Shown here piece after piece: positions 10,645 to 30,589 of a stretch of DNA of 33,981 bases. Numbering within the stretch: the first letter of the stretch is position 1; every line of letters begins with the position of its first letter. Location: the NCBI GenBank assembly GCA_949287395.1, contig CASEFZ010000004.1, positions 1 through 33,981 on the forward strand, read 5' to 3'. The position numbers and the translations under genes were made by a program. This DNA comes from an uncultured Verrucomicrobiota bacterium (GTDB lineage: Bacteria; Verrucomicrobiota; Verrucomicrobiia; Opitutales; Intestinicryptomonadaceae). The notes under the pieces were generated by a model that made no database searches, was not told the origin of the DNA, and worked only from the letters and a program-made list of their open reading frames with translations.

Positions 10645-10713
10645 GCGGGGCTTTTCCCTTGCGTCTGAAATTTTACTTGAATCCGGCGTTGGGAGCGATA
10701 GGATTTGGGGCGT

Positions 10714-13179
10714 ATGTTGAGTAGAGGAGTTTTTTTTGCGGCATTTTTGTCTGCGTTTTTTGCGTGTGTGGGAACCTCTCTGTTTGCGGACGGAGCCCTT
10801 GAGGTTTACAAGACCCCCAAGCTTGCGGGCAAAAGCATTGTGTTTACAACACACCGGCAGTACGGGAAAAGCCACCACAATACGGATACGATGTTTCAGA
10901 ACGGAGAGGTTGGGAGCAACCTTTGGGACAGGTCGGCGGGCGGTTCAAAGCTGGTATTGGCGAGTTTCGACAAAGACGGGAATCCGGAGCTGAAAACTTT
11001 GGTTGAAGCCCCGGACGGAATAATAAGGGATCCCGATATCTCGTTCGACGCAAAAAAGGTTGTTTTTTCAATGCGCCGCAACAAAGCCGACAGTTTTAAG
11101 ATATATGTTTACGACTTGCAGAGCGGAAAGACCGACCAGCTTACCAAGCTTGAGGATTCCTCCGATTTGGAGCCTATCTGGCTACCGACGGGCGAGATAG
11201 TTTTTTCATCTACGCGCGCGGCGAAGTATTGCGGGTGCAATAGGCACATAATGTGCAATCTTTACCGCATGAATCCCGACGGCTCCAATATATTGCAAAT
11301 AGGAAATTCAATAGAGTTTGAGCACGCCCCGAGCGTAATGCGCGACGGCCGCATATTGTACACGCGCTGGGAATATGTAGACCGCAACTTCGGGGGCGCC
11401 CAGGGGCTTTGGACGTGCAACCCCGACGGCACGCGCCACGCGCTGTATTGGGGGCAGGAGACATCCAACCCGTCCATAGGCGGCGTGCAGATGCCGGATT
11501 CTTCAAAGGTGGTTTCCGTTTTGGCGTCGTGCCACGACAGGCCCTGGGGGGCTCTTGTCCTCATAGACAGGAATGTGGGCATAGAGGGCGAAAAGAGCGT
11601 ATTGAAAATTTTTCCGAAAGACGCGCGCCATTTGATAGGCAGGGAAAAGACATTGACCGAAAAATGGGGCGACGCAATGTGGCCCATTCGCATAAAATAT
11701 GAAGACCCGTACCCGGTGTCGGAGAATTTGGTGCTGGTTTCGCGCTATGTGCGCGAGGGCGACCCTCTCAACCCGCCCCCAATGGGGCTGTGGCTTGTCG
11801 ACTTTTCAGACGATTCCGAAACCCTTGTTGCCAAAATTGAGGACAAAGAGCTCCAGAAGGTTTGGGACGCCGCCAAAGACAACGGCGCGCGCATGAGGGC
11901 CAAAGAGTTTATGGGGGTATTTTCCGCAAAGCCCGTATCGGCCCGCAAGGCGGCGGTGATAGCCGACCAGCGCGGATCGTCCACCGACAAGAGCTACGTT
12001 TACATATCCGACGTTTACGAAGGCACGCACATGAAGGGCATAAAGCGCGGCGACATAAAATACATAAGGGTTGTTGAAAATGCCCCGAAGCTCTCGTGGA
12101 GCGCCCGCGGCTGGAGCAACGACGGGGAGCAGGCGCCGGCTATGAATTATGAAGACTATGCAATAAAGGTCGACTTGGGCGTGGTGGAGGTTGAAAAGGA
12201 CGGCTCGGCATATTTTGAAGTTCCGTCGGACAAGTTTGTGTATTTTCAGGCGCTCGACAAAGACAAGAACATGCTGCAATCTATGAGGAGCGGTTTGGTT
12301 GTTTTGCCCGGGGAGATATCGTCGTGTACGGGCTGCCACGAATCGCGCTACTCGCCGCCGCCGACTATGTCCACGCCGTCCCTCGCGCTAAGGAAGCCCC
12401 CGCAGGTTCCGCGCGGCGCGCCCGAGACTTTCGGCAAGGCCTTCGACTACATGAAAATGATCCAGCCTATCTTTGACAAACATTGCATGGACTGCCACGA
12501 TGCCGGCAACGACACCGGACTCACTCTTTCACGCGACAAGGGGCTGGTGTTCAACAGGTCTTACATGGATTTGCACTCAAAGAAGCTTATAAACGTTGTA
12601 GGCGCCGGCCCCAACGCCGTGCAGGAAGCCAATACTTGGGGCGCAAAGCACAGCGTGCTGATGTCGAAGCTTGACGGCACCCACAACGGCGTGAAGCTTT
12701 CCGACAGCGAGAGGGACGCAATAAGGCTGTGGATAGATTTGAATGCGCCTTACTATGCAACGCACGACTCTGCCTATCCGGCGAATCTTGCGGGGCGCAG
12801 CCCGCTTACTTTTGAGGAGCTTAAAGAGCTGGCAAAGTTGTCGGGCAATGACGGAATTTTAAAGTCGCACGCCAGGGCGTACAAGACGGAACTGGTGTCT
12901 TTTGACAGGCCGCAGACTTCGGAGATTTTAAAAAAATTTAAGAAGGGGTCGCCCGAGTACGCGCGCGCGCTTGAGATAATAGGTGCGGGCGCGCGCCGCT
13001 TGAAAGAGCGTCCAAGGGCCGATATGGAAAATTTCAGGGGAATGCCAATTGACGAATGGCGCGCGCAGCGCTACGAAAAATTCCGCCAGCTGGAACTGCT
13101 TTGCAGAAAGGCGGTTGACGAAGGTGGAATTGTGCATGATCCGCAAAAGTTGGACATGCCCACGATGCCGGGCAAATAG
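10714..13179 (+). CDS. Secreted beta-propeller with two CxxCH heme motifs (HZS-alpha-like)
   Basis: An 821-residue protein with a signal peptide (about 1-26, ending SLFAD). The first ~400 residues carry TolB/PD40-type propeller blades such as DPDISFDAKKVVFSMRR and EPIWLPTGEIVFSSTR. A cysteine cluster C173-x-C175-x5-C181 lies within. The middle resembles the hydrazine synthase alpha subunit domain. Two c-type heme sites follow: CTGCH at 538-542 and CMDCH at 591-595, the latter in a cytochrome-c-like segment preceded by IQPIFDKHCMDCHD. The family is common and uncharacterised in PVC bacteria; hydrazine synthesis should not be assumed. A periplasmic or surface redox role is inferred. The ATG at 10714 has AGGA 10 bases upstream; an in-frame TTG at 10705 would overlap that site. 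An 8-bp hairpin with TGCG loop follows the stop. Confidence 0.8.
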   Translation: MLSRGVFFAAFLSAFFACVGTSLFADGALEVYKTPKLAGKSIVFTTHRQYGKSHHNTDTMFQNGEVGSNLWDRSAGGSKLVLASFDKDGNPELKTLVEAPDGIIRDPDISFDAKKVVFSMRRNKADSFKIYVYDLQSGKTDQLTKLEDSSDLEPIWLPTGEIVFSSTRAAKYCGCNRHIMCNLYRMNPDGSNILQIGNSIEFEHAPSVMRDGRILYTRWEYVDRNFGGAQGLWTCNPDGTRHALYWGQETSNPSIGGVQMPDSSKVVSVLASCHDRPWGALVLIDRNVGIEGEKSVLKIFPKDARHLIGREKTLTEKWGDAMWPIRIKYEDPYPVSENLVLVSRYVREGDPLNPPPMGLWLVDFSDDSETLVAKIEDKELQKVWDAAKDNGARMRAKEFMGVFSAKPVSARKAAVIADQRGSSTDKSYVYISDVYEGTHMKGIKRGDIKYIRVVENAPKLSWSARGWSNDGEQAPAMNYEDYAIKVDLGVVEVEKDGSAYFEVPSDKFVYFQALDKDKNMLQSMRSGLVVLPGEISSCTGCHESRYSPPPTMSTPSLALRKPPQVPRGAPETFGKAFDYMKMIQPIFDKHCMDCHDAGNDTGLTLSRDKGLVFNRSYMDLHSKKLINVVGAGPNAVQEANTWGAKHSVLMSKLDGTHNGVKLSDSERDAIRLWIDLNAPYYATHDSAYPANLAGRSPLTFEELKELAKLSGNDGILKSHARAYKTELVSFDRPQTSEILKKFKKGSPEYARALEIIGAGARRLKERPRADMENFRGMPIDEWRAQRYEKFRQLELLCRKAVDEGGIVHDPQKLDMPTMPGK

Positions 13180-17315: not shown

Positions 17316-18518
17316 ATGGGAATATTACATGGTGGCAAATGCGCGGCAATTTTTGCGGCGTTCGCGTGCGCGCTGGGAATGGGCGGACAGGTGTTGGCGC
17401 AGGAAAAGGGCGCTGAGGCTCCCGGCGCGAAGAGGGTTGTCGTATATGCCAGGAACGATTCGGGCAATGCGAAACTGGACGGAAGTGTAAGGTTTTTAGA
17501 AAGAGCGGTGGAGTCGCGCTTAAACGCGGCGGGCTTTGCGGTTGTTGACAGGGAACTGGCGGTAAAGTCGTTGCAGGAATATCTCGACAGGCCGCAGGCT
17601 GCAGACAAGGCCGCAGTGGAAAAGGCGAAGGAAATATTTGAGAAATCGGGTTTTGGGGCAAATCTGTTTGCGGACGCTTCTGGATTGCGCGTGGCAGAAA
17701 TAATAGGCGCCGATTATGTTCTTACCTTGGGGCTCGGCAGTTTTGCCGTTGATAAGCGATTGTATTCGGGGTATGGAATAAGCACGGACAACGAAAACCA
17801 CGTCTTGAGAAGCAACTATTCCTTTGGCAAAATAGCCGGAGGAGGCGCGGGAATAACGGGCGGGGCGGTGAAGTCTTCGGCTGTATTGCGCAGAACGGAT
17901 GGATCGTTGCCTGACGGCGGGGACATTCTAAACTCTCTTGTGGAGGATACGGCCAGGCAGGTGGCAATGGAGGTCTCAAAGAGCCTAATTGTGAAAAACG
18001 ATACTCCCGACGCGCCGCAGATGTCGGACGTTTCCATCGTCTTTGCACTGGAGGAATTGTACCTGCCTGAATTTGTAAAAAAGGACGGCGAATTTGTTCT
18101 GACGGGCAGGAATGTTCCGTTCCATATTCCGTATGTCACGGCTCTTGTGGACGGCGTGGCGCGCACCGTGGGCGGAAGCATCAGCCTTTCAAAGGGATTG
18201 CACACCTTGAAAATATCGCAGGCCGACATTGCGCCTGTTGAGATGCACATAAATGTCACCGGAGAGCTTGGCCAGAGGCTTGCGCTTTCCCTGAAGATCA
18301 GCGAAGACGCCAGGCGCAGGTGGAAGGACGACTTGGAGTTTGTCGAGAAAATAAAGGCCCGCGCCGCGCGCAGCGACGACTTGCGCAAGTTGACCGATGC
18401 CGAGGCCGAAAGATTGCGCGGGGTTGGAAAGTCTTTTGAGAATTCCGGCTTTAAGGTAAATATAGATGCGGACAATCTGCCGGAGGTGCACCGCACCCAG
18501 AGTATTTTTGGGCAATAG
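17316..18518 (+). CDS. Secreted CsgG/LpoB-fold protein with PEGA-like domain
   Basis: A 400-residue protein with a signal peptide (about 1-28, cleaving after QVLA). Residues ~38-215 resemble the CsgG/FlgO/LpoB nucleotide-hydrolase-like fold: a strand-helix start VVVYARNDSGNAKLDGSV, VESRLNAAGFAVVDRELAVK, then VAEIIGADYVLTLGLGSF. Residues ~260-325 (LVDGVARTVGGSISLSKG and HTLKISQADIAPVEMHINV) resemble a PEGA domain, a small surface beta-sandwich. The rest is charged helix. CsgG-family proteins form or associate with outer-membrane secretion pores; pore formation is not shown here. It opens the operon: ATG at 17316 has AAAGG 8 bases upstream, and the next gene starts 30 bp later with its own GGAGG site. 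Confidence 0.72.
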   Translation: MGILHGGKCAAIFAAFACALGMGGQVLAQEKGAEAPGAKRVVVYARNDSGNAKLDGSVRFLERAVESRLNAAGFAVVDRELAVKSLQEYLDRPQAADKAAVEKAKEIFEKSGFGANLFADASGLRVAEIIGADYVLTLGLGSFAVDKRLYSGYGISTDNENHVLRSNYSFGKIAGGGAGITGGAVKSSAVLRRTDGSLPDGGDILNSLVEDTARQVAMEVSKSLIVKNDTPDAPQMSDVSIVFALEELYLPEFVKKDGEFVLTGRNVPFHIPYVTALVDGVARTVGGSISLSKGLHTLKISQADIAPVEMHINVTGELGQRLALSLKISEDARRRWKDDLEFVEKIKARAARSDDLRKLTDAEAERLRGVGKSFENSGFKVNIDADNLPEVHRTQSIFGQ

Positions 18519-18548
18519 CCGGAGAGGGAAATTTTTTGGAGGTTTGCT

Positions 18549-19520
18549 ATGAATGGTAGAGCGGTTTTGTCATTTGCGCTAATATTTGCGTGGCCCTGCC
18601 TTTGGGCGGCGGAGGGGGAAAATGCTGTTCCCGCCGCGCCGGGCGCGCCGGATCGGGTTGCCGAACAGCAAAATTCTACATCTGAGAAAGCTACCCTTGC
18701 CATCGCAAAAATTGCGGTTGCCAAGAGCTTGTCGGCAAAGGCTGCCAAAGATGGCGCTTCTGAGATGTTGGGAAGAATTACGGAGGCGCTTGAGGGCAAT
18801 TTGGTGTCGGCCTTCCATGCGGGGCGGCGCTTTGAACTGCTTGTGCGTTCAGATTTGGACGCCGTAATGGCGGAAATTTCGCTTTCTGATTCCGGGAATG
18901 TGGCCGCCGACAGGAACGCCGCGGCGGCGGGCAAACTGAAGGGGGCAAAATATTTGCTGGTGGTGTCGGTTGACGATTTTCAGCAAATAGGGCTGAAAAA
19001 AGCTTTTGCGTCTTTGGACAAAACCGTTTGGCGCAAGTCGGTGCGCGTGGGCGTAAGCGCGAAGATGATTGACTCTTCTACGGGGGCGGTTGTGGACGCC
19101 GGAAACTTTTCGTCGGCGGATTCAGGGGTTGCGGAAATGTGGTCGCAGATAAAATCTGAGGCGGACTTTAACGATTTTCTTGCGGCCAAAATCTCGCGCG
19201 AGCTTGCGGATAAGATAGCCTCTAAGATGACCGATGCGGCCTTCCCCGTGAGGGTAGTGGCAAAGACTGGCAAGTATGTGACGATAAACCGCGGCGAAGG
19301 CGCGGGGGTGTCGGTGGGGGACGAGTACACGGTTTTTGCGGCGGGGCGCAAAATGAAAGACCCCGACACGGGAGAATTTCTTGGAACGGAGGAAATACCC
19401 ATAGGGAAAATACGCATAGAGGCGGTTTCTGCGAAGACGTCCCGCGGGGTTGCCGGAAAGGACATGGGGGTGGAAATAGGGCAGATTGCCCGTAAAACGA
19501 ACCGGGGCTCCGGGCAATGA
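18549..19520 (+). CDS. Secreted CsgG-family protein with FlgT-like C-terminal domain
   Basis: A 323-residue protein with a signal peptide (about 1-20, cleaving after LWA). The first two thirds look CsgG-like: ATLAIAKIAVAKS, ITEALEGNLVSAFHAGRRFE, LLVRSDLDAVMAE, then AGKLKGAKYLLVVSVDDFQQ, the usual layout of a curli-assembly-type core. The C-terminal ~85 residues (VTINRGEGAGVSVGDEYTVF and GKIRIEAVSAKTSRG) match the beta-barrel found at the end of FlgT and related proteins. In flagellated bacteria FlgT builds a basal-body ring, but no flagellar gene is present here. ATG 18549 is preceded by GGAGG at ideal spacing. Its TGA overlaps the next ATG by four bases, indicating translational coupling. 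Confidence 0.75.
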   Translation: MNGRAVLSFALIFAWPCLWAAEGENAVPAAPGAPDRVAEQQNSTSEKATLAIAKIAVAKSLSAKAAKDGASEMLGRITEALEGNLVSAFHAGRRFELLVRSDLDAVMAEISLSDSGNVAADRNAAAAGKLKGAKYLLVVSVDDFQQIGLKKAFASLDKTVWRKSVRVGVSAKMIDSSTGAVVDAGNFSSADSGVAEMWSQIKSEADFNDFLAAKISRELADKIASKMTDAAFPVRVVAKTGKYVTINRGEGAGVSVGDEYTVFAAGRKMKDPDTGEFLGTEEIPIGKIRIEAVSAKTSRGVAGKDMGVEIGQIARKTNRGSGQ

Positions 19521-20947
19521 TTTGGCTGGCGCGGGTGTTGTGCGTTTATGGCGTGCTTGCGCTTGCGGGGTGCGCAACGTACACATCGCAGACGGAAAAA
19601 ATGCGCGCTGACTGGGCCGCCGGGAATGCGGCTTCGGCTTCGCGCGAGGCCGAGGATTTTGCAAAGTCTTCGGCGGATAGCGGCGATGCGTTGGTATGGT
19701 TTCTCGAGGCGGGGGCGGCAGCGAGGGCCGACGGCAAACTGAAGGAAAGCATAGGGCATTTCGACGCAGCCTTTAAGCTTGTGGAGCGTTATGAGTCCGA
19801 GGCGGAAATACGCCTCGGGCAGGAAACCGCCGCAATATTTACCAATCAAAGTTTCATGCCCTACAAGGGGTACAACTACGATAAGATAATGATGTCTGTG
19901 TACCAGGCGCTAAACCACATTGAAGCCAAAGAGTTTGACGCCGCTGCCGTGGATTTAAAGCGGCTGGAGAATTTCCAAGCGTCTGCGGAAAGAAAGAATG
20001 CGGGCGATATAGAGAACAGGATGAGGGCGCTTGATGAGGAATCGGCTAAGCGCGGGGCGGTTGGAGCGAGTTCTTATCTTTACAACCCGGGCGTCAACTC
20101 GGCCTTGAGGCGCGCGTATGGAGATAAGTTTCCGCAGTCTGCGCGGCAGCAGGCAAAGGGTGTGTATGTAAACCCGTACGCATATTGGGTTGGCGGCCTG
20201 TACTTTGCAAATAGGCCGGAGGATATTTCCGACAAGAACAGGGCGGCCGATCTTTTTAGATTTGCCGCACAGATGCTGGGCGGCAAATCGGGCCCGCTGA
20301 ACGAGGACGCACGCGCGGCCGGAATGCTTGCCTCGGGGCTTATAACGAAATTTCCCGCCACAACTTATGTCGTTTACGAGGCCGGATGCGCCCCTGTCAG
20401 GAAGCAGATAAGGGTGGATATACCCCTTTCTATAGTTGGGCGCGGCCTTCCGTATGTGGGGGTGAACTTCCCATATTTGGATTTTCAAAATTTCCATCGC
20501 GGAGATTTGTCGGTTATGGCCGGCGGAAAAAAATACGCCTTCGATACTGTTGCCGACATGGACGAAATAATAAAGCGTGAGTTCGATTCTGAATTCCCCT
20601 ATGTTGTGGCAAAGACCATAATTTCAGCCGGCGTCAAGGCGGCTGCCGAATACGCAGCCTCGCAGGCCGCTGGCGACTATTGGTGGATTGCCGCGATAGT
20701 GGGCGGGATTTATCAGGCAGCAACCAACGATGCTGATTTGCGCACTTGGACAACCCTTCCCAAACAGATCCGCATAGCGCGCCTGCCAACCCCAGAGGAC
20801 GGCAAGCTAAGCATGGATGGAAAGGTTGTGGAGCTTGTTCCCGGGTGCACAAATGTTGTGCTTGTAAAGCGCATGTCCGCGGGCGGAAAACTTATTATAC
20901 GAAGGTTTGACTTTAATGACAAAATGACAACAAAGGATAAAATATGA
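19517..20947 (+). CDS. COG3014-like lipoprotein
   Basis: A 476-residue lipoprotein with lipobox LAGC (Cys19), +2 residue Ala, predicting outer-membrane sorting by the E. coli rule. The helical first half looks TPR-like: WFLEAGAAARADGKLKESIG is followed by a helix containing YNYDKIMMSVYQALNHIEAK. The second half contains PYAYWVGGLYFANRPEDISD and YVVYEAGCAPVRKQIRVDIP, then a hydrophobic segment around AAEYAASQAAGDYWWIAAIV and a beta-rich end. This combination is what I know as the COG3014 family, which has no described activity. Such genes are often next to YcfL- and LpoB-type genes, as here. It overlaps both neighbours by four bases (19517-19520 and 20944-20947). Confidence 0.75.
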   Translation: MIWLARVLCVYGVLALAGCATYTSQTEKMRADWAAGNAASASREAEDFAKSSADSGDALVWFLEAGAAARADGKLKESIGHFDAAFKLVERYESEAEIRLGQETAAIFTNQSFMPYKGYNYDKIMMSVYQALNHIEAKEFDAAAVDLKRLENFQASAERKNAGDIENRMRALDEESAKRGAVGASSYLYNPGVNSALRRAYGDKFPQSARQQAKGVYVNPYAYWVGGLYFANRPEDISDKNRAADLFRFAAQMLGGKSGPLNEDARAAGMLASGLITKFPATTYVVYEAGCAPVRKQIRVDIPLSIVGRGLPYVGVNFPYLDFQNFHRGDLSVMAGGKKYAFDTVADMDEIIKREFDSEFPYVVAKTIISAGVKAAAEYAASQAAGDYWWIAAIVGGIYQAATNDADLRTWTTLPKQIRIARLPTPEDGKLSMDGKVVELVPGCTNVVLVKRMSAGGKLIIRRFDFNDKMTTKDKI

Positions 20948-21351
20948 AATTGAGGCTGTTTTTATTTTTGGCGCTTCTGTTTGGAGCGTGCGCGTGTTCG
21001 ACGGTCAATACGGTGGAGAGGGCCGCCCCATCCGGCAATGCGGGCATGGTTGACGACAAGCGCGTCATAACCGACAGCGCTTTGGACGAATACGCCTATG
21101 TGGCCGCCATAAACGAGAGTTTTGTAAGCGGAAATCTTTTGAAGATACAGGCAAAGATTGTAAATTCGACAGCCGCATTCCGAAGCGCCAACTACAAGTT
21201 TACGTGGTTTGGCGCCGATGGCATGCAGGTTGGGGAAACACCCTGGGGCGTTGTCACCCTCGAGGGTGGGGAGAGCAAGTATATTTCGGCTGTGGCGCCT
21301 ATGCCGAATGTTAGGAACTTTACATTGACGCTTTTACCAAACGTTAGATAG
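20944..21351 (+). CDS. YcfL-like (DUF1425) lipoprotein
   Basis: A 135-residue lipoprotein; signal MKLRLFLFLALLFGAC with the likely lipid cysteine at 16 (Cys18 is an alternative). The mature part has LLKIQAKIVNSTAAFRSANY, then KFTWFGADGMQVGETPWGVV and an all-beta C-terminus ending FTLTLLPNVR, matching the small immunoglobulin-like YcfL family. In E. coli ycfL is the gene next to lpoB, and here too it directly precedes an LpoB-like gene (11 bp gap), which strengthens both calls. Its molecular role is unknown. The ATG overlaps the stop of the previous gene by four bases. Confidence 0.8.
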   Translation: MKLRLFLFLALLFGACACSTVNTVERAAPSGNAGMVDDKRVITDSALDEYAYVAAINESFVSGNLLKIQAKIVNSTAAFRSANYKFTWFGADGMQVGETPWGVVTLEGGESKYISAVAPMPNVRNFTLTLLPNVR

Positions 21352-21362
21352 GGGGCACTGAA

Positions 21363-21926
21363 ATGAAAAATACATATCTTAAGTTTTTTGCGTGGGCGTT
21401 TGCGGCGATTTCACTTGCGGGCTGTGCGAGCTCCAACGCCTCTTATGTCGATTCCGGCGGCCCCAGAACCGTAATATCGACGAATAAGATAAACATGGCC
21501 GATTGGAACAGCGCCTCTGCGGCCCTTGTAAACGACCTGCTTTCTTCCGGTGTTTTGGAGAGGTTTAAGCAGCCTGTCCGCATGTCGGTTGGGCGCATAA
21601 CAAACCGAACCAGCCAGCCTGTTGATACCGACATGCTGACAAAGCAGATTTGCATAGCGCTCAACAACTCTGGCAAGGTTGTGGCGATGTCAACTGACGG
21701 TGCCTCGAAAGAGCTTGCAGAATACCAGGCGTTCAAATCCGGAGGGCAGGTTGCAGCTCCGCAGATAAGCATGACAGGAAAAATTGTGGAAGACCGCGAA
21801 AGCAACGACGATGTTAGGGAGGTCACGTATGTGTTCATGCTTGATATCAATAGCGGAGGGGTGATTGTTTGGTCGGGCCAAAAGCAGATAACCAAGCAAT
21901 CGCAAAAGAGCGTGTTTGGGTTTTGA
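21363..21926 (+). CDS. LpoB-like lipoprotein (penicillin-binding protein activator family)
   Basis: A 187-residue lipoprotein with lipobox LAGC (Cys21, +2 Ala). The mature domain follows the LpoB pattern: MADWNSASAALVNDLLSSGV, then VGRITNRTSQPVDTDMLTKQ and IALNNSGKVVAMS, ending VIVWSGQKQITKQSQ. Enterobacterial LpoB reaches from the outer membrane through peptidoglycan to activate PBP1b via its UB2H domain. The long disordered tether of E. coli LpoB is short here, and no penicillin-binding protein is in the window, so activation of a PBP1b-type enzyme is only a hypothesis; the fold is shared with CsgG relatives. A GGGGG site precedes the ATG. Confidence 0.82.
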   Translation: MKNTYLKFFAWAFAAISLAGCASSNASYVDSGGPRTVISTNKINMADWNSASAALVNDLLSSGVLERFKQPVRMSVGRITNRTSQPVDTDMLTKQICIALNNSGKVVAMSTDGASKELAEYQAFKSGGQVAAPQISMTGKIVEDRESNDDVREVTYVFMLDINSGGVIVWSGQKQITKQSQKSVFGF

Positions 21927-21952
21927 GCGTTCGCGGATTCGGAGGTGCTTTT

Positions 21953-22147
21953 ATGAGACTGGCTGGATTGTTGGCTTTGGCGTGTGCGGCCTTGTGGCTG
22001 TGCGGGTGTGAGAGTGCCGGGTTTGCACCGGAGTCTGCCCCGGACCTAATTACGCCGTCCGTGGACGCAAAAACTACCGTGCGCCATTGGGACGCATCGG
22101 GGCAGCCTGTCGAGAGGGAAGTTCCCTCTCAGGCTCCGTTTAACTGA
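21953..22147 (+). CDS. Small 64-residue lipoprotein, end of envelope operon
   Basis: MRLAGLLALACAALWLCGCE is a lipoprotein signal with likely lipid cysteine at 19. The 46-residue mature chain has no hydrophobic core (TVRHWDASGQPVEREVPSQA), so it is probably extended or disordered and acts as a tether or partner peptide. I know no family. The ATG at 21953 has GGAGG at ideal spacing and lies 26 bp after the LpoB-like gene, so it is the sixth member of the operon. An upstream in-frame non-ATG start would overlap the previous gene and place sequence before the signal. Confidence 0.75.
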   Translation: MRLAGLLALACAALWLCGCESAGFAPESAPDLITPSVDAKTTVRHWDASGQPVEREVPSQAPFN

Positions 22148-22251: not shown

Positions 22252-22279
22252 TGCGGATTGGAGGTTGTGGTGCCAGTTC

Positions 22280-23287
22280 ATGGGTAGAAATGTAAAACCG
22301 ACGGTGTTTGTAAGTTCGGACTATCGTTATGTGTGCGACACTTGCGAACCGCTTAAGAGCGCAATAAAATCCGGAAGCGTTGAATGGACGGGTTTTAGGC
22401 GCGGTTTGTATCCTGGGGTGGAGCTTGCCGGGGAAGAGCTTGAGGGCCTGCGTTTGCTCGCCTATTGGGATGCGAAAAAAAATCAGGATTGGAGCCTTGG
22501 CTTCCACAGAAACGAAGGCCTTGAAATAGGTTTTGTGGAGAACGGTTCAACCGGGTTTTCGTCCGACGGGCGCTCCAAGAAGTATGCGCGCCTCACCAGC
22601 GACTACGTTGCCGTGACAAAGCCGTGGCAGGAACATTCAGTTGGCGAAGGCGGGGTAGGTGCGTGCAAAATGTATTTTGCCATAATAGATTTTGGGGTAA
22701 GGCGCCCCAACCAGGAATGGAAATGGCCGGCTTGGATTATCCTCAGCGAGTCCGACAAGAGTTTTTTCTCAAAGTATATGCAGAATACGCAGGCGACAGT
22801 CTTCAAATCGACTCCAGAAATGAAGAGGGCCTTTTCGAAAATTGGGGGCATATTGTCGTCGCCGAACATGTTCGACTTTTCCGCCATTGCTCTGATGCTG
22901 AATTGCGTGCTGTTGGAGCTTTTAAATGTCTTTAGGGGCGAAGGCTCCGGCCTGTCGGATTCCTCCCCGAACGAGAACGTTGTTAAGTGTTTTCTTGACC
23001 AGCTCCCCGCGTATTGCGCCGAGCCTTGGACTCTTGGAACAATGGCCGAGGATTGCGGCTTAAAGCCAACGCGTTTTGCCTATTATTGCAAGCGTTTGGC
23101 AAATGCCACCCCGATGGAAATATTAAATGACACCAGACTTGAACGCGCAAAGAAGATGATACTTGCCTCCGCCGGAGAGTTGCCGCTGACACAGATAGCG
23201 TTGGAATGTGGGTTTTCGTCCAGCCAGTATTTTTCTACAAAATTTAAGGAAAAGTTCGGCGTTCCCCCGCGCGAATTTAAGGCTTAG
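22280..23287 (+). CDS. AraC-family transcriptional regulator
   Basis: A 335-residue regulator. The N-terminal half is a cupin-like sensing domain with VAVTKPWQEHSVGEGGVGAC and IDFGVRRPNQEWKWPAWIIL, a version common in Verrucomicrobiota. The last ~95 residues form the double helix-turn-helix DNA-binding domain: WTLGTMAEDCGLKPTRFAYY, MEILNDTRLERAKKMILAS, then LPLTQIALECGFSSSQYFST and FKEKFGVPPREFKA. It lies at the edge of the sugar-catabolism locus, convergent with the kinase gene, and is the obvious candidate regulator of it; the ligand is unknown. The start is uncertain: the ATG at 22280 lies 15 bases after GGAGG, while an in-frame TTG at 22265 abuts it. Confidence 0.9.
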   Translation: MGRNVKPTVFVSSDYRYVCDTCEPLKSAIKSGSVEWTGFRRGLYPGVELAGEELEGLRLLAYWDAKKNQDWSLGFHRNEGLEIGFVENGSTGFSSDGRSKKYARLTSDYVAVTKPWQEHSVGEGGVGACKMYFAIIDFGVRRPNQEWKWPAWIILSESDKSFFSKYMQNTQATVFKSTPEMKRAFSKIGGILSSPNMFDFSAIALMLNCVLLELLNVFRGEGSGLSDSSPNENVVKCFLDQLPAYCAEPWTLGTMAEDCGLKPTRFAYYCKRLANATPMEILNDTRLERAKKMILASAGELPLTQIALECGFSSSQYFSTKFKEKFGVPPREFKA

Positions 23288-23573: not shown

Positions 23574-25130
23574 TTATTGCCCATAGCCCGGCAGCGATTC
23601 CAAAATTTTTTTGAAATCCGCAAGCTTTTGCGCATATACTTCTGGATTCTTTGGCGTCTTAAAGAGCGTCCGCGAACAGAATTTATTTTCAAGCTCCGCC
23701 AAATTGATTCCTCCGGCTACACAGGCGGCTCTCATTGCGGCCCCCAGCGCCGCGGAATTGTGGGTGCGGCTCAAGCGGAAGACGGGAGCGTTGAATATGT
23801 CGGATATTGTCTGGGCTATTCCGTCGCTGCCGGAGGCCCCGCCTGTCAGAACAATGTTTTCGGGCTTGGAGCGCATCCGCTGCGCCTGTATGAACATGTT
23901 CATGAATTGCCCCTCTATAAACAGCCTGACTGCCCGGGCTTTGTCTTGGAGCGGATTTTTTATGCCGAAGAAAGCCGGCGCATGCGCGGCAACTTTCGGC
24001 GAAATTTCCGGAACGTAAAATGGAACCGCAAACATGCCGTCGTTTTTTGGAACGGAATTTTCAAAACTTTCCCTGTCAAAAAAATTCCAGTCTACTTGAA
24101 GCTCGTTTTTAAACGCCTCCCTTGCCAGAGAACCGTTCCTAAAACATATCAAATTCATGTATCCGCCCGACGGATTGCCGAATACATGCGCGTTTGCGAC
24201 CGGCGCATACACATTGTTTGAGCAAAAGAATGTGTCGCTTGTCCCAAGGCTGATTGCCGCATTTGAACCCTCTGAAGCGCCCACCCCAACAAGGCTTGCC
24301 GGATTGTCTCCGGTGAAAGCGCACACGCAGGCCCCGTCGGAAAAGCCGTAGTTGCGCCGGAAGTATTGCGCTATCTTTCCCGTTGCGCAGCCGGCGGCGT
24401 CTATTTTGGGAAGCTTTGCCTCCAGGCCGGGGGCAGTGGCGTCCAGCATTGTGCGGTCCCAAATGTTTTGCCTGAGGTTTAAAAGGTTCATGCCCGCGCC
24501 GTCTCCGAGATCGACAGGCATGTCTTTCCCGCACAGAACCGAACATATGAAGGACGAATTCAAGTGAATGCGTTTTGTGGCCTCATACACATCGGGATTT
24601 ACCCGGCGCATCTTGAGTATTTGCGCCGCCGTAAAGCGTTCTGTCGCAATCGATCCCGTAGCCTCTAAAACATAGTCTTCGCCGCCCGCCGCCGAGGTGA
24701 TCATGGCGCATTCGCGCGAGGTTGATGCGTCCATCCATATTGGAGATTTCTCGCTGCTGAAAAATTTTGCAATTCTTTCCGAAAGCGCTCCCTTTGCGGC
24801 TCCGTCCGATGCACCAAAAGCATTCTGGTCGGAAAGCCACACGCTTGCGTGCTGCTGCCCCGACCCCCCTATGGCTGAGACCTCCCCCAGGTTCATTCTG
24901 CGCGACAACCTCTCAAAAAGCAGGTCGAGCGCATCCAGCCACATACGCGGGTACGACCACACTTCAAGCGGGTTCGACGGGTTTGACACCGAACCCGCGC
25001 GCGTGCCGTAAGAAGGCAAGTCTCTCTCGAAATTTACGCTTTCCGAAAGCACATCCGCGCCGCCGCAATCTATTGCCACCGCCGTCAGCGATTGCGTGCT
25101 TGCGTCTATTCCGAGAAATTTTTCAGGCAT
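23574..25130 (-). CDS. xylB: Xylulokinase of the animal-XYLB-like type (FGGY family)
   Basis: A 518-residue FGGY sugar kinase, expected to phosphorylate D-xylulose to xylulose 5-phosphate with ATP in the cytoplasm. Seen: N-terminal FLGIDASTQSLTAVAID phosphate loop, FERDLPSYGTRAG, GGSGQQHASVW, SPIWMDASTSRECA, GDGAGMN with the probable catalytic Asp210, FTGDNPASLVGVGASEG, ISLGTSDTFF and the C-terminal LTGGASGSDGIAQTI adenosine site. Several of these blocks read more like eukaryotic XYLB than like E. coli XylB. It is the last gene of a four-gene minus-strand operon, 17 bp after the HEAT-like gene. Specificity for another ketose, such as ribulose, cannot be ruled out because the isomerase partner is of the fucose/arabinose type. 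Confidence 0.9.
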   Translation of the reverse strand: MPEKFLGIDASTQSLTAVAIDCGGADVLSESVNFERDLPSYGTRAGSVSNPSNPLEVWSYPRMWLDALDLLFERLSRRMNLGEVSAIGGSGQQHASVWLSDQNAFGASDGAAKGALSERIAKFFSSEKSPIWMDASTSRECAMITSAAGGEDYVLEATGSIATERFTAAQILKMRRVNPDVYEATKRIHLNSSFICSVLCGKDMPVDLGDGAGMNLLNLRQNIWDRTMLDATAPGLEAKLPKIDAAGCATGKIAQYFRRNYGFSDGACVCAFTGDNPASLVGVGASEGSNAAISLGTSDTFFCSNNVYAPVANAHVFGNPSGGYMNLICFRNGSLAREAFKNELQVDWNFFDRESFENSVPKNDGMFAVPFYVPEISPKVAAHAPAFFGIKNPLQDKARAVRLFIEGQFMNMFIQAQRMRSKPENIVLTGGASGSDGIAQTISDIFNAPVFRLSRTHNSAALGAAMRAACVAGGINLAELENKFCSRTLFKTPKNPEVYAQKLADFKKILESLPGYGQ

Positions 25131-25147
25131 CGTGCGAAGCTTTAGGC

Positions 25148-26212
25148 TTAGGATTTTTTTATCGCCGACAGTATTCTGTCAAGAGCCGCCTTGTATTCGT
25201 CGGAGGAATTCCCAACCGAAGCGGTAAGCAAGTTTACGGCCTTCTGTTTTGCGTCGTCGTCGACGCGTTTCAGCGCCGCCGAAAGCACCTTTACAAAGTT
25301 GGGCAGCTTAGATTTGTCGATCTGCCTAAAGGACGGCGCAAAAGCCTCAAGCGTGGACTTGCTTCCGACAGCCTCAAGAGCGGCAAACGCCTCTGAAAGC
25401 GCCTTTCCCCTGCATTCGGAGACGGCCTTTATCAGCTCGGCCTCGGCTTCGGAACACGCCCGGAGCCTCGCGGCCCTGAACGCGGTTATATCGCGCGCGG
25501 CAATTGCCTCGATTATCGCGGCGTCGGATTGCGCGCACTCCGCAAGCGCGTTTTCCAAAGACGCATTCGGCCTGTTTTTTGCTTCGGCAACTATCTTTTT
25601 TGCGCAGTCGGCGCCGCCCATGCGGGCAAGCGCAAAGCACCACGCTTTCGAGATGTTGTCGTTGGAGGGGGTTATGCGCATCAATATATCCTTCGAGCCC
25701 TCGCACTTGGGAAGATTTCTCAGCATGCGAATTTTTGCGCGTTCCGGGGCATTCTGGAAAGCCTTGTCAAAGGCTCCCCAGGCGGGCTGCCGATTGGCGC
25801 CGGGCTTCGCCATTAGGAATATGGCAGCCTTTGCCGTAACACATCCTTCCGCGTCCAACTTCGCCAAGTCTTGCGCAGCCTTTTCGTCAGCGTAGTAGGC
25901 CAGGGCCAAGACCGCCGCCGGGCAATCGTCCTTTCCGGAAAAAGCGGCGCGGCTAATTATCGGGTAGGCCTTCCGGCATTTCATGCAGCCGAGGGAATAT
26001 ATCACCCCTCCTTTGAGCTTTTTGTCGCCTATCTTGTCCAGCGCGGCAAGCAACTCGTCGGCCGCCCCCATGAATTCAAGCTCCAGCCTGGCGTTGTCCG
26101 CAACTCTGGCGTCGGAACTTAAAAGCCTCTTTGCGGCGTCGTCGCGCGAAGCCTGGGCGAACATTAAGGCGCATGTTAGCGCGCATGCCAATGTAAACAA
26201 ACACTTCTTCAT
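25148..26212 (-). CDS. Secreted HEAT-like repeat protein
   Basis: A 354-residue protein with a signal peptide (about 1-19, ending LMFAQ). The mature chain is almost all alpha-helical with ~30-residue repeats of HEAT/PBS-lyase type: RVADNARLELEFMGAADELL, KLKGGVIYSLGCMKCRKAYP, CPAAVLALAYYADEKAAQDL, with a CxxC pair in the second. Such solenoids bind partner proteins; no enzymatic motif is seen. Position, 3 bp after the oxidoreductase gene and 17 bp before the xylulokinase gene, makes it an operon member, but how a secreted scaffold serves a sugar pathway is unclear. Similar repeat proteins next to oxidoreductase genes are familiar in PVC genomes. Confidence 0.75.
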   Translation of the reverse strand: MKKCLFTLACALTCALMFAQASRDDAAKRLLSSDARVADNARLELEFMGAADELLAALDKIGDKKLKGGVIYSLGCMKCRKAYPIISRAAFSGKDDCPAAVLALAYYADEKAAQDLAKLDAEGCVTAKAAIFLMAKPGANRQPAWGAFDKAFQNAPERAKIRMLRNLPKCEGSKDILMRITPSNDNISKAWCFALARMGGADCAKKIVAEAKNRPNASLENALAECAQSDAAIIEAIAARDITAFRAARLRACSEAEAELIKAVSECRGKALSEAFAALEAVGSKSTLEAFAPSFRQIDKSKLPNFVKVLSAALKRVDDDAKQKAVNLLTASVGNSSDEYKAALDRILSAIKKS

Positions 26213-26215
26213 TGC

Positions 26216-27505
26216 TTAAACCCCCAGATAGTACGGCGCGCGGCGCGGACGCGAAAGCATTGCCTGGGCGCGCGCATTGTTGAGAACATTTTCGGTTTTC
26301 GGATCCCACTTGACGTGTTCTCCCAAGCGCAAGGCTATGGAGGAAAGCTGGCAAATGGTTGCGCTTCTGTGCCCTATTTCGGCAGGGCAAATATTGTCGC
26401 TGCCAAAACGCACCGCATTGATAAAGTCCGCGCGGTGGTCGTTTGAAATATGCAGGCGGGTGTCGGACGACTTCAGCGGCATGCTTGCAAGCCTCAACGG
26501 GGTTGTGGATATCCTCCCCCCGCGGCTGACTAGAACCTCCCCCTCTTCGCCTATAAATTGTATCATCTGGTTGTCGCGCGCCGGCGCATTCACAAACACG
26601 GTTATGCCGTCGGCATACCTGTAATGGCGGTGTTCCGAACCGTCGGAATTTGGCGGAAAGAAATCAACCGGGCCGGAATTGTCCATTCCAAGCGCCCACT
26701 GTATTATGTCAAAGTGGTGCGCGCCCCAGTCGCCTTCCTTGCGGGCGCCGTACTCGTAAAAGCAGCGCCAGCCGCTGCCGTAGTTGCCCATTACGCGGAA
26801 ATGGTTGTACGGGCGCCAAGGCGTCTGGCCCAGCCACATGTCGTAATCGAAGCCTTCGGGAATGGGCTCCTCCTTGAGGTCTTTGGGCTCCGGAGGAAAT
26901 TCGCCTATCATGGTGTTGATTCTCGTCACGCGCCCTATATAACCGTTCCTGACAAGCTCGGCCGCCTTTCTAAAGGCCCATTCGCTCCTCTGCTGCGAGC
27001 CAACCTGAAGCACGCCGCCGGTCTTCTTAACGGCGTCGGCAAGGGCGCGGCCCTCGCGCACGGTGAGGCTCATGGGCTTTTCCACGTACACAGCCTTGCC
27101 AGACTCTATGGCCTTTAGCGCTATGGCCACGTGCCAGTGGTCGGGCGTGCATATGCACACAACGTCAACGTCGTCGCGCGCTATAACGTCTTGATAGCGG
27201 TGGTAGGTGTCGCATTCCTTAAAGCCTATGTCCTTTCTGCCGCGCGCTATATTGTCAACTTCGTCCTTTGCATTCTTGAGATGCTGGGCGTGGACGTCGC
27301 ACACGGCGCAGACCCTCGTGTTGGCGGAACTGGCAAAGTATTTCCTGTGCCCTTCGGAAATCAGGCCGTTGCCTATCATGGCAACATTCAACATTTGGCT
27401 CGGGGCCGTTCCTCCCTTGCCAAGCAGCCTGGAGGGTAGAACCTGCACCGAGAGCATCGCCGCAAGGGCGGAATTGCCCAAAAACTTTCTTCTGGATATT
27501 TTCAT
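26216..27505 (-). CDS. Gfo/Idh/MocA oxidoreductase with twin-arginine signal
   Basis: A 429-residue NAD(P)-dependent sugar-type dehydrogenase. The twin-arginine motif SRRKFLG (residues 4-10) and hydrophobic segment predict folded export by the Tat system. The Rossmann start LNVAMIGNGLISEGHRKYF has a variant glycine pattern. VCICTPDHWHVAIALKAIE and YVEKPMSL (Glu142-Lys143-Pro144, the family's conserved EKP) follow, then the substrate domain with EGDWGAHHFDIIQWALGM. Members oxidise or epimerise sugars; some exported relatives act as glycosidases by transient oxidation. The substrate here is unknown. It is second in the minus-strand operon, 6 bp from the isomerase gene and 3 bp from the HEAT-like gene. 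Confidence 0.9.
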   Translation of the reverse strand: MKISRRKFLGNSALAAMLSVQVLPSRLLGKGGTAPSQMLNVAMIGNGLISEGHRKYFASSANTRVCAVCDVHAQHLKNAKDEVDNIARGRKDIGFKECDTYHRYQDVIARDDVDVVCICTPDHWHVAIALKAIESGKAVYVEKPMSLTVREGRALADAVKKTGGVLQVGSQQRSEWAFRKAAELVRNGYIGRVTRINTMIGEFPPEPKDLKEEPIPEGFDYDMWLGQTPWRPYNHFRVMGNYGSGWRCFYEYGARKEGDWGAHHFDIIQWALGMDNSGPVDFFPPNSDGSEHRHYRYADGITVFVNAPARDNQMIQFIGEEGEVLVSRGGRISTTPLRLASMPLKSSDTRLHISNDHRADFINAVRFGSDNICPAEIGHRSATICQLSSIALRLGEHVKWDPKTENVLNNARAQAMLSRPRRAPYYLGV

Positions 27506-27511
27506 GGCGCC

Positions 27512-28993
27512 TTATCCTTTAAACGGGTTTTCTGACGGATACGCCTCTTTGCTGGGAACGTAGATCTCATCCACCCCCAGCTGTTTGAGCGCGTCGAAAA
27601 GTATCGAACCGCAGTGGCAGAAGGCCACCGCCGCGTGATGGTGGAAACGCCCAAGCAGGCAGTTCCTGTAGAAGCGCATGAAGCCTTCTATGTGCGCAAC
27701 CCCAACCGAACCGAAGGTTTTGGGATCCACGTCTATAAACGAGCCTTCACATATGTATGCGCGCAGCTTGTCGCCCGACCCGTGCACCTGGAATATGGTT
27801 ATGTCGGAAGCCTTAATTGCGCCTTCAAGCGTTCCGCGCGTTATTTCCGGCTTCACCCCGGGCTCCATGAGGCGCGACATTATAAGCTGGTGGCAGACCT
27901 TTGGCTGATTCATGAATTTTGCCGGCACATTCCCGCAGTGGAACAGCCCTATTATGTCTTCAGACTTGTCGGCCAAAGAGGCGCAAAGCATATCCTTGGG
28001 TATGGTGTGGTTTATATCGAGCATTGTTGCCGCATTGCCCGATGCGTATTGGCAGGCGAGCTCCGCCACAAGGCTGTAGGCGTCGTTTTCGCACGCAACG
28101 GGAAACCCGTTTTCGGTAAGCCTCGAATTTACAAAGCACGGAACGTGCTTGGAAAAACTTTCCTGGCGCGTCCAGCACTGGGTGGTGGCGCCGGACAATT
28201 TCTTTGATTCCTTAAAATTCAGCAGGGCGCGTTCGTAAAGAGACATGCGCTCGGCAAGCGGAAGGTCTATGGAGCCGGCAGCCTCCATCATTTCGGCGGC
28301 TATCCCCTTCGCGCTTGCCGCGTCGGATTCCCTGATTCTGGCAATTTCCTCTTCGAGGTCGAATAGGCCCAGCTCCTCAATCTCCACGCCGATAGACATG
28401 AGCGACGCAACGTTGTAACTGCAGCTTTCAAAATCTCTCGGCCGCGGCCCGAAAAGCCCTATCGTGGCGTTGGAAAGCCCCTTAACAACCGCGGTTATTT
28501 TTGCGAACCTGGCTATTTCGCGGGCGGCAGAATCCGCGTCTACAAGGGGTTTCGAGGGAATGGTCACTTTTCCGGACAAGCCCCGCTTGGCTATCGCCAA
28601 AGAGGCGCTCATAAGCCCGCACAGGGCGTCGCCCCTTGCGGTGGATACGCTCTGCGAATTTTCTTCGGCGGCGGCCATAAGCAAAACGGGCTTGCCGAAA
28701 GCCTTTACAAAGTTGGCGTCCTCTATTTCGGGCGAGAAATTGCCAAGGTATAGTACCGCGGCGTCGCAGCCGCTCTTGGCAAAGAAATCCGCCGCGGCAG
28801 CAGCGTCTTCTTTAGACTCTATTATAGAGCATCTTCCCTCTGGCTGGACAACCTCAAAATCCTCGGGTTCCCCAAGAGCCTTCATTACGGCCGCCATCCT
28901 GCTTTGCGAAAGTTCCCGCGGGAAACAGTTGCGTGACGCACTTACAAGGCCGATTTTCACATTCGGCGAATATTTTCCGTTCTCAAGGTACAT
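27512..28993 (-). CDS. L-fucose/L-arabinose isomerase-family protein
   Basis: A 493-residue protein of the fucose/arabinose isomerase superfamily, which interconverts aldoses and ketoses using a divalent metal. Evidence: NVKIGLVSASRNCFPRELSQ at the N-terminus, GCDAAVLYLGNFSPEIEDA, IGLFGPRPRDFESCSYN in the middle, DINHTIPKDMLCASLADKSE with IIGLFHCGNVPAKF, and a C-terminal LGRFHHHAAVAFCHCG histidine cluster that could bind metal. Specificity cannot be read; with xylulokinase in the same operon a pentose is likely, L-fucose or D-arabinose possible. I moved the start to ATG 28993, preceded by AGGGAGA at good spacing; the longer frame starting at 29047 adds 18 residues unlike the family. It is the first gene of the operon. 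Confidence 0.82.
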   Translation of the reverse strand: MYLENGKYSPNVKIGLVSASRNCFPRELSQSRMAAVMKALGEPEDFEVVQPEGRCSIIESKEDAAAAADFFAKSGCDAAVLYLGNFSPEIEDANFVKAFGKPVLLMAAAEENSQSVSTARGDALCGLMSASLAIAKRGLSGKVTIPSKPLVDADSAAREIARFAKITAVVKGLSNATIGLFGPRPRDFESCSYNVASLMSIGVEIEELGLFDLEEEIARIRESDAASAKGIAAEMMEAAGSIDLPLAERMSLYERALLNFKESKKLSGATTQCWTRQESFSKHVPCFVNSRLTENGFPVACENDAYSLVAELACQYASGNAATMLDINHTIPKDMLCASLADKSEDIIGLFHCGNVPAKFMNQPKVCHQLIMSRLMEPGVKPEITRGTLEGAIKASDITIFQVHGSGDKLRAYICEGSFIDVDPKTFGSVGVAHIEGFMRFYRNCLLGRFHHHAAVAFCHCGSILFDALKQLGVDEIYVPSKEAYPSENPFKG

Positions 28994-29077
28994 ATTGAAT
29001 TTCTCCCTATAGTTAAGAATCCTTTTTGTCGCCCAACAAAACTCCATCCCCTACATCTCGGGGCGTCCTTAACACAA

Positions 29078-29253: not shown

Positions 29254-30579
29254 ATGTTTAGGCTATTTGTGTTGTGCTTGTTTGCATTGCAGCCTTTTTC
29301 CAGCGCCATGGCGGACGCGGAATTTTCCGGAGCGATGGCGCAAAGCCAATTCGGCCTTCCGGGAGAGAGAATAGGGGAACTTGCCCCCCGCGGAGCCACA
29401 AACGATCCACTGAGCGGAGAGGTCTTGCTTTCCCTTGACAACGGCATATATAAGCTGGATAAACAACTTTCCCTGCAGCGGATTGCGGACATTCCGCATG
29501 CGGGCTGCCGCCTGGCAAACGACGGCGTTAGAATTTACGCAATTAGCGACTACGTTGTTGTTCCCTACGAAAATGAGGGCGGCAAATGGGTTGCTAAAAA
29601 AACCGTCTATATCAATCCCGCGCCGATGCGCATATTTGTTGCGTCAACATCTTCGGGCTGGGGGGCGAAAGGGAAGTTCTTCGGGTACAATGCAAAGGAC
29701 GGTAAAGTCTATGCCTTCGATGCGGGGCTAAAACCTCTTGGGGCGGTGTTTGAGCCTCCAAAAATAGAGAAGGGAAGCGGGTATAAGTCGGTTGCGGTAA
29801 TGCCGGAGAGCGGCGATATGCTTCTCTCGACGGAGTATCCCGATTTGACAGTTTACAGGTTTTCACCCGACGGCAAACAAGTCTATGGCGGCGGCTGGCC
29901 GCTCAGGGGGCAGTACTGCGCCTCGGGCGGATTCGCTCTGGCGGGCGGAAAGTTATTTGCAATGCACGCGGGGATAAGCGAAGTTCCGGAGCGCATATTG
30001 TCGGTTGGAGATTTGGAGTCTGCCGGAGACGGAAGCGACATGCCTACATTTGGGATGGCCTCAGACGGCGCGGACGGCTTCTATGTGGCGTCGGCATGCG
30101 GGACAAAGCACTATCCCGACGGCTTTGGAACGGAGGCTAAGCGCAGGATAGGGGGCGTTGGGAAACTGAAGTCCATAGCGGTAAACTCGGGCATGGTGGT
30201 GTTTATAACCGACGGGTTTCTGTGCGCAATGATGTTGGACGATTTCAGCGATTCCGCAATGCTCTCCAACGGGCGCGAGCCGTGGCGCTGCGGCGCAAAT
30301 TGGGTTTCAAATCCGGAAATAATTGCGGCGTACGGCGGCGGATTTGCGGTTTACGATTCAAAACTCGACTGCGCGTGGGCCTTTAATCCGGCGTCAGATG
30401 GCGCGGAAAGGTGGGTGAAAATAGACACGGCCGGGGTGCCTGCCAGAAATTTCGTATTGTCTTTGAAACGGACTTTCAAGCCTCTTCCAAAATCCGTCGG
30501 GGAGCACGATGTTTGCGGCAAGTGGCTTGTCGGGCACGTGCCGTCGGAGAAGGCCATATTCCGCTATAAATTAAAGTGA
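29254..30579 (+). CDS. Secreted beta-propeller-like protein
   Basis: A 441-residue protein with a signal peptide (about 1-21, ending SSAMA). The mature chain is beta-rich with recurring blade-like segments: SGEVLLSLDNGIYKLDKQLS, LANDGVRIYAISDYVVVPYE, KDGKVYAFDAGLKPLGAVFE, SGDMLLSTEYPDLTVYRFSP. This fits a seven-bladed NHL/SMP30-type propeller. I see no catalytic signature and cannot name a family. The ATG at 29254 follows GGGGGGAGAG. It is transcribed with the glycoside hydrolase 10 bp downstream, so it may bind the same glycan or hold the enzyme at the surface. Confidence 0.75.
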   Translation: MFRLFVLCLFALQPFSSAMADAEFSGAMAQSQFGLPGERIGELAPRGATNDPLSGEVLLSLDNGIYKLDKQLSLQRIADIPHAGCRLANDGVRIYAISDYVVVPYENEGGKWVAKKTVYINPAPMRIFVASTSSGWGAKGKFFGYNAKDGKVYAFDAGLKPLGAVFEPPKIEKGSGYKSVAVMPESGDMLLSTEYPDLTVYRFSPDGKQVYGGGWPLRGQYCASGGFALAGGKLFAMHAGISEVPERILSVGDLESAGDGSDMPTFGMASDGADGFYVASACGTKHYPDGFGTEAKRRIGGVGKLKSIAVNSGMVVFITDGFLCAMMLDDFSDSAMLSNGREPWRCGANWVSNPEIIAAYGGGFAVYDSKLDCAWAFNPASDGAERWVKIDTAGVPARNFVLSLKRTFKPLPKSVGEHDVCGKWLVGHVPSEKAIFRYKLK

Positions 30580-30589
30580 GGTTTTTTGC

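Follow-up and report, generated by a model that had tools for sequence, protein, structure and literature searches.

An envelope operon of six genes, joining LpoB-, YcfL- and CsgG/FlgT-like proteins, is shared by several phyla and occurs mainly where class A PBPs are lacking

The window analyzed here, a stretch of 33,981 nucleotides, comes from a MAG of the phylum Verrucomicrobiota (1.93 Mb, 119 contigs, 92% complete), the nearest named kin of which are Opitutales MAGs and Puniceicoccaceae bacterium Marseille-Q1082. Between positions 17316 and 22147, it contains six open reading frames (ORFs), all on the plus strand, which we refer to as genes A to F (Table 1). The B/C and C/D junctions are 4-base overlaps (ATGA), and the intergenic gaps are 30 bases (A-B), 11 bases (D-E) and 26 bases (E-F). 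The reading of these ORFs as a single operon, which an earlier note on this DNA had based on the two overlaps and gaps of 30 bp or less, was borne out, as were the four lipoboxes that it had named; scans for promoters and terminators gave a signal no better than that of shuffled sequences. The N-termini of all six products are hydrophobic. Lipoboxes are found in C, D, E and F, whereas A and B have signal-peptide-like N-termini without a lipobox. For each of C, D and E, all 49 orthologues compared have the lipobox cysteine, and it is kept in every relative of F among the matches listed. The residues at position +2 of C, D, E and F are A, S, A and E, respectively, and none is Asp; the E. coli Lol sorting rule, which concerns this residue, is to our knowledge unproven in Verrucomicrobiota.

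Table 1. Genes of the envelope operon, with positions given in the window.
Gene	Position	Strand	Length (aa)	Features
A	17316..18518	+	400	Exported, without lipobox; CsgG/FlgT-like domain, PEGA-type beta domain, C-terminal helices
B	18549..19520	+	323	Exported, without lipobox; CsgG domain, FlgT/TsaP-like C-terminal domain
C	19517..20947	+	476	Lipoprotein, COG3014-like; TPR N-terminus, beta domains, long helix
D	20944..21351	+	135	Lipoprotein, DUF1425/YcfL family
E	21363..21926	+	187	Lipoprotein; LpoB domain on short tether (~22 residues)
F	21953..22147	+	64	Small lipoprotein; mature form of 46 residues

Elsewhere in the window, the ORF at 10705-13179 (+) encodes a protein with a hydrazine synthase alpha middle domain (PF18582, 2e-29); in this gut-type Opitutales MAG, it is probably a general exported-protein domain rather than a sign of anammox. 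A sugar cluster at 23574-29047 (-) consists of an FGGY kinase, a 354-aa ORF without a family, a Gfo/Idh/MocA oxidoreductase and a fucose isomerase-like protein, and is adjoined on the opposite strand by an AraC-type regulator (22265-23287). Two large ORFs of 441 and 935 aa, without a Pfam family, lie at 29254-33397 (+).

The AlphaFold model of A (pLDDT 80.5) places the CsgG/FlgT-like domain at residues ~40-226 and the PEGA-type domain at ~236-326, followed by the helices. In a Foldseek comparison with solved structures, this model matched the LPHT ring/FlgT (1e-7 and 1.8e-6) and GNA1162 (5e-7), and further HpaA, LptE, PelC and CsgG; the TM-scores were modest (0.2-0.3 by query), marking these as partial-domain matches. 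The PEGA-like domain that the earlier note had claimed for A is correct, because 24 of 38 A orthologues match it (best 6e-12). Among the window proteins, A, C and F match no Pfam family above the cut-off. A candidate match of A to TraT (0.0011) was rejected, as it fell below the cut-off and was absent from the other A orthologues on rescanning. A is homologous to B (hhalign 97%, 4e-11), in which residues 44-188 match CsgG (PF03783, 6e-8, 32.7 bits against a cut-off of 20.8). In profile searches, the C-terminal part of B matched solved pilus structures with TsaP (6ve2, 4.7e-7; 3jc8, 1.4e-6). FlgT_M and FlgT_C were recognized in 13 and 9 of 39 B orthologues, respectively, and both were below the cut-off in the window protein, so that the FlgT-like end ascribed to B is seen through its orthologues. 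A Pfam scan detected no LysM domain in B or its orthologues, and a lipobox-like motif occurs in only one of 39 B orthologues. The match of B to the E. coli CsgG profile is weak (22% probability), and an amphipathicity scan found no segment like CsgG TM2 in B, the alignment with CsgG ending before the region of this second membrane hairpin. CsgG, PelC and FlgT are ring formers, and A or B may likewise form a ring.

The structure of C was predicted with confidence (pLDDT 88, pTM 0.89) and consists of the TPR N-terminus, a beta domain, a 56-residue helix (348-403) and a C-terminal beta domain. TPR families match some C orthologues; Foldseek returned generic TPR matches only and no PDB fold match below 1e-3. 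The PDB profile matches of C, all of them cytochrome b562 fusion constructs, were dismissed as noise. We found no literature on COG3014, either alone or together with LpoB. A lone second copy of C, without the other operon genes, occurs at one locus (L036, G014:C50), in a genome that also has a full operon. D matches DUF1425 (PF07233, 2.7e-14, 53.3 bits against a cut-off of 28.3) and the solved relative 3o0l (5.9e-12); its lipobox residue, Cys18, is invariant, and its gene adjoins that of the LpoB-domain protein E. We know of no function assigned to YcfL, the neighbor of lpoB.

LpoB figures in textbooks as a regulator of cell-wall synthesis. E matches the LpoB family (PF13036, 1.9e-16, 60.7 bits against a cut-off of 22.3) and the solved LpoB structure 2mii (2e-4), and fails the NCBI equivalog model TIGR02722 (73.1 bits against a cut-off of 110.55). 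The profiles accordingly place B in CsgG, D in DUF1425/YcfL and E in LpoB, in agreement with the families named beforehand. We then considered the tether between the lipidated cysteine and the LpoB domain in 157 homologues from Verrucomicrobiota, Planctomycetota, Azospirillum, Aeromonas and E. coli, in 18 of which the lipobox was unrecognized. The tether is 18-24 residues long in 138 of the 139 homologues with a recognizable lipobox, and the sole exception is E. coli LpoB, with 55 residues including 16 prolines. The Aeromonas LpoB has a short tether of 21 residues, and E of the window is without a long proline-rich linker. In E. coli, LpoB activates a peptidoglycan synthase, and its long linker has been described as letting it reach PBP1B from the outer membrane (PMC4632607). 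The narrowly fixed length in the other homologues suggests that E is packed beside the membrane. In one Verrucomicrobiota genus, a tandem pair of LpoB-like genes follows C and D (L188, L192 and L193).

F is conserved behind E in nine further genomes of the same family and carries the motif VRxWDxxGxPxExxVP (in fuller form TTVRxWDxxGxPxEKxVP), which resembles VRxWRTETTxDGRxIQVP of a larger, glycine-rich small lipoprotein. The gene for the latter flanks the operon in about 30 other loci, where it precedes A or follows E. F appears to be a relative of this broader family of small lipoproteins encoded at one or the other end of the operon; the direct link between the two is weak (0.0093).

How widely is this arrangement kept? 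C is present in 21 of 36 relatives of the source genome. Around 20 such places, the neighboring genes mostly read A-B-C-D-E, and F accompanies them in many members of the same genus and family. A scan of 84,980 species genomes yielded 378 relatives of C, and 80 loci from Verrucomicrobiota and Planctomycetota (Brocadia, Jettenia, Loosdrechtia and Phycisphaera) were kept for flank analysis. Among the 70 loci with enough flank, E is located just downstream of C in 69, and D in 55; the 56 loci flanked on both sides include 32 with ABCDE, 11 with C-D-E and 10 with C-E. The order A-B-C-D-E is common to Opitutales, other Verrucomicrobiota and Planctomycetota (Brocadiaceae and Phycisphaera). Another 40 loci, which belong to other Verrucomicrobiota classes, have the genes together in shuffled orders (C-A-D-E, A-C-D-E and C-A-B-E), and because the genes are kept together despite rearrangement, functional linkage seems a better explanation than inherited order alone. 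This neighborhood search, which the earlier note had proposed, found the gene set conserved together far beyond chance. C itself occurs in 219 of 388 genomes of the phylum and in 44 of 198 genomes of the class of the Phycisphaera locus, some matches being weak or partial.

The set extends into Proteobacteria. Plasmid p1 of Azospirillum sp. TSH100 carries a row of genes for C, YcfL, LpoB, a DUF6844 protein and a B-like protein, and the DUF6844 protein between lpoB and the B-like gene (L225:9388-10731) is a possible further partner. Gammaproteobacteria were sampled through plasmid-collection records and E. coli K-12. An Aeromonas caviae record contains hinT, C, ycfL, lpoB and a thiK-like gene in a row, and the C profile aligns over the full length of the Aeromonas protein whose gene immediately precedes ycfL-lpoB (99.9%, 9e-31). 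This locus resembles our operon in its C-D-E order and short LpoB tether, and differs in having no match to A, B or F within the 17-kb stretch examined. The gene set is distributed over at least three phyla. In E. coli K-12, the locus reads hinT, ycfL, lpoB, thiK, without C, and so resembles a remnant of a C-D-E cassette. There, as in the window, YcfL adjoins LpoB in the same order and on the same strand, the LpoB domains are homologous and both products are lipoproteins; in contrast, C, A and B are missing from the E. coli locus, the proline-rich linker of its LpoB has 55 residues compared with ~21 here, and the enzyme that it activates is absent from the source genome. The simplest reading, drawn from two proteobacterial samples only, is that C was lost in E. 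coli.

The earlier note had suggested looking in the source genome for a class A PBP with a UB2H domain. The search detected neither: PF00912 has no match in this 92% complete MAG, and the lone UB2H match, subthreshold at 18.4 bits, was rejected because it lies at the end of a truncated Mfd/UvrB-type frame and because the model is unspecific, with matches in 12 of 14 control genomes too. PF00912 is also missing from 35 of 36 relatives and from 46 of 49 other named operon-bearing genomes, compared with its presence in 137 of 388 genomes of the phylum sample. When the lists of genomes with C and with PF00912 were compared by hand, none of the 27 strong-C genomes of the same class (26 of the same order and G329) had PF00912, and none of the 55 PF00912 genomes of that class had a strong C, whereas in the other Verrucomicrobiota classes 41 of 100 C-bearing genomes also had PF00912. 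Because this class-level split is confounded by phylogeny, our claim is one of independence from class A PBPs, not of exclusion. UB2H is missing from the seven class A PBPs inspected, of which six are from genomes with the operon or a strong C and one is from a genome with a partial C (G225); the E. coli MrcB control was positive. The source genome contains two SEDS proteins, and bacteria with SEDS proteins and class B PBPs but without class A PBPs have been documented, PVC members included (PMC8406291). Literature searches for LpoB with aPBP and Planctomycetes, and for LpoB with FlgT and CsgG, found nothing. With no class A PBP, no UB2H domain and a tether of 18-24 residues instead of 55, E in this operon does not qualify functionally as an LpoB. 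This tether argument would be weakened if short-tethered LpoBs, such as that of Aeromonas, were PBP1B activators.

What, then, might the operon do? The most likely mechanism, to which we assign a probability of about one half, is that the six gene products form an outer-membrane-proximal periplasmic complex with CsgG/FlgT-like subunits that works independently of class A PBPs. A and B, as CsgG/FlgT-fold subunits, would be expected to oligomerize, probably into a ring like those of FlgT, PelC and CsgG, and C, D, E and F would anchor the assembly in the outer membrane, at its inner leaflet. Held beside the membrane on a fixed tether of ~20 residues, E would be a structural subunit rather than a long-reach activator of an inner-membrane synthase. 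Since some loci have C and E but neither A nor B (10 C-E and 11 C-D-E among the 56 loci), the ring proteins are perhaps not obligatory. The likely role would be that of an envelope-stabilizing or docking collar that either sits between peptidoglycan and the outer membrane or surrounds an envelope-spanning machine. The multi-part outer-membrane assembly envisaged in the earlier note survives in this form, its location being a predicted one. Among known systems, the FlgT/H-ring and LPHT ring of polar flagella share the structural match of A and, as judged from the B orthologues, probably the CsgG/TolB-like middle domain and the FlgT_C-like domain; however, the source genome is without FlgH (PF02107), so no flagellar L-ring gene was found, no flagellar gene adjoins the operon, and LpoB, YcfL and C do not belong to such a ring. 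The CsgG, PelC and GNA1162 families, some members of which form rings, have the fold common to A, B and E, but curli and Pel genes are missing from the window, and B is unlipidated and shows no evident membrane hairpins.

The operon might instead regulate cell-wall synthesis, with E, scaffolded by C and D, activating or positioning RodA/FtsW and class B PBPs. That E is a true LpoB-domain protein in a genome with SEDS proteins and no class A PBPs would fit this idea, as would the activation of a peptidoglycan synthase by LpoB in E. coli (PMC4632607). We nevertheless regard it as unlikely, because the tether of 18-24 residues contrasts with the long E. coli linker that reaches PBP1B, because the operon is also found alongside class A PBPs, and because the CsgG/FlgT proteins and the TPR lipoprotein would be left unexplained. 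Moreover, neighbor-ORF clustering, which is noisy and was informative only for the small-lipoprotein cluster, revealed among the matches listed no recurrent synthase gene beside the operon and likewise no recurrent secretin or pilus gene. The latter result, the lack of such genes in the window and the missing LysM domain of B make it somewhat less likely still that B is a TsaP-like collar protein stabilizing the secretin of a type IV pilus or type II secretion system at the outer membrane and peptidoglycan, even though its C-terminal domain matches TsaP of solved pilus structures and the source genome encodes two secretins. Least probable of all, in our estimation, is a CsgG-type export channel in which B would form a pore in the outer membrane through which a surface protein or polysaccharide passes, with the lipoproteins as accessory factors. 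B does exceed the CsgG Pfam cut-off, and A resembles the PelC and CsgG folds, but B has no lipobox, its weak match to the E. coli CsgG profile ends before the second hairpin with no comparable amphipathic segment following, and no CsgE/F or curlin gene is present in the window.

Returning to the complex that would work without class A PBPs, we note a corollary concerning E. coli, where ycfL-lpoB would be what is left of a C-D-E cassette whose LpoB acquired a long linker and, as its partner, PBP1B. We tentatively speculate, at odds somewhat short of even, that LpoB is older than its partnership with PBP1B, and that it originally belonged, as a subunit on a short tether, to a widespread outer-membrane complex in which C, YcfL and LpoB are joined by CsgG/FlgT-like proteins and which needs no class A PBP, the E. 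coli pair having arisen after the loss of C and the extension of the linker. Because the cross-phylum set is found mostly in bacteria without the known target enzyme of LpoB, LpoB may have an older, unstudied job in an outer-membrane protein complex. The presence of LpoB and YcfL in a conserved set, in bacteria that build their walls without class A PBPs, would give the trio of LpoB, YcfL and C a general envelope role that has not yet been studied, and the trio is accessible in easy hosts, namely Aeromonas with C-ycfL-lpoB and E. coli with ycfL-lpoB.
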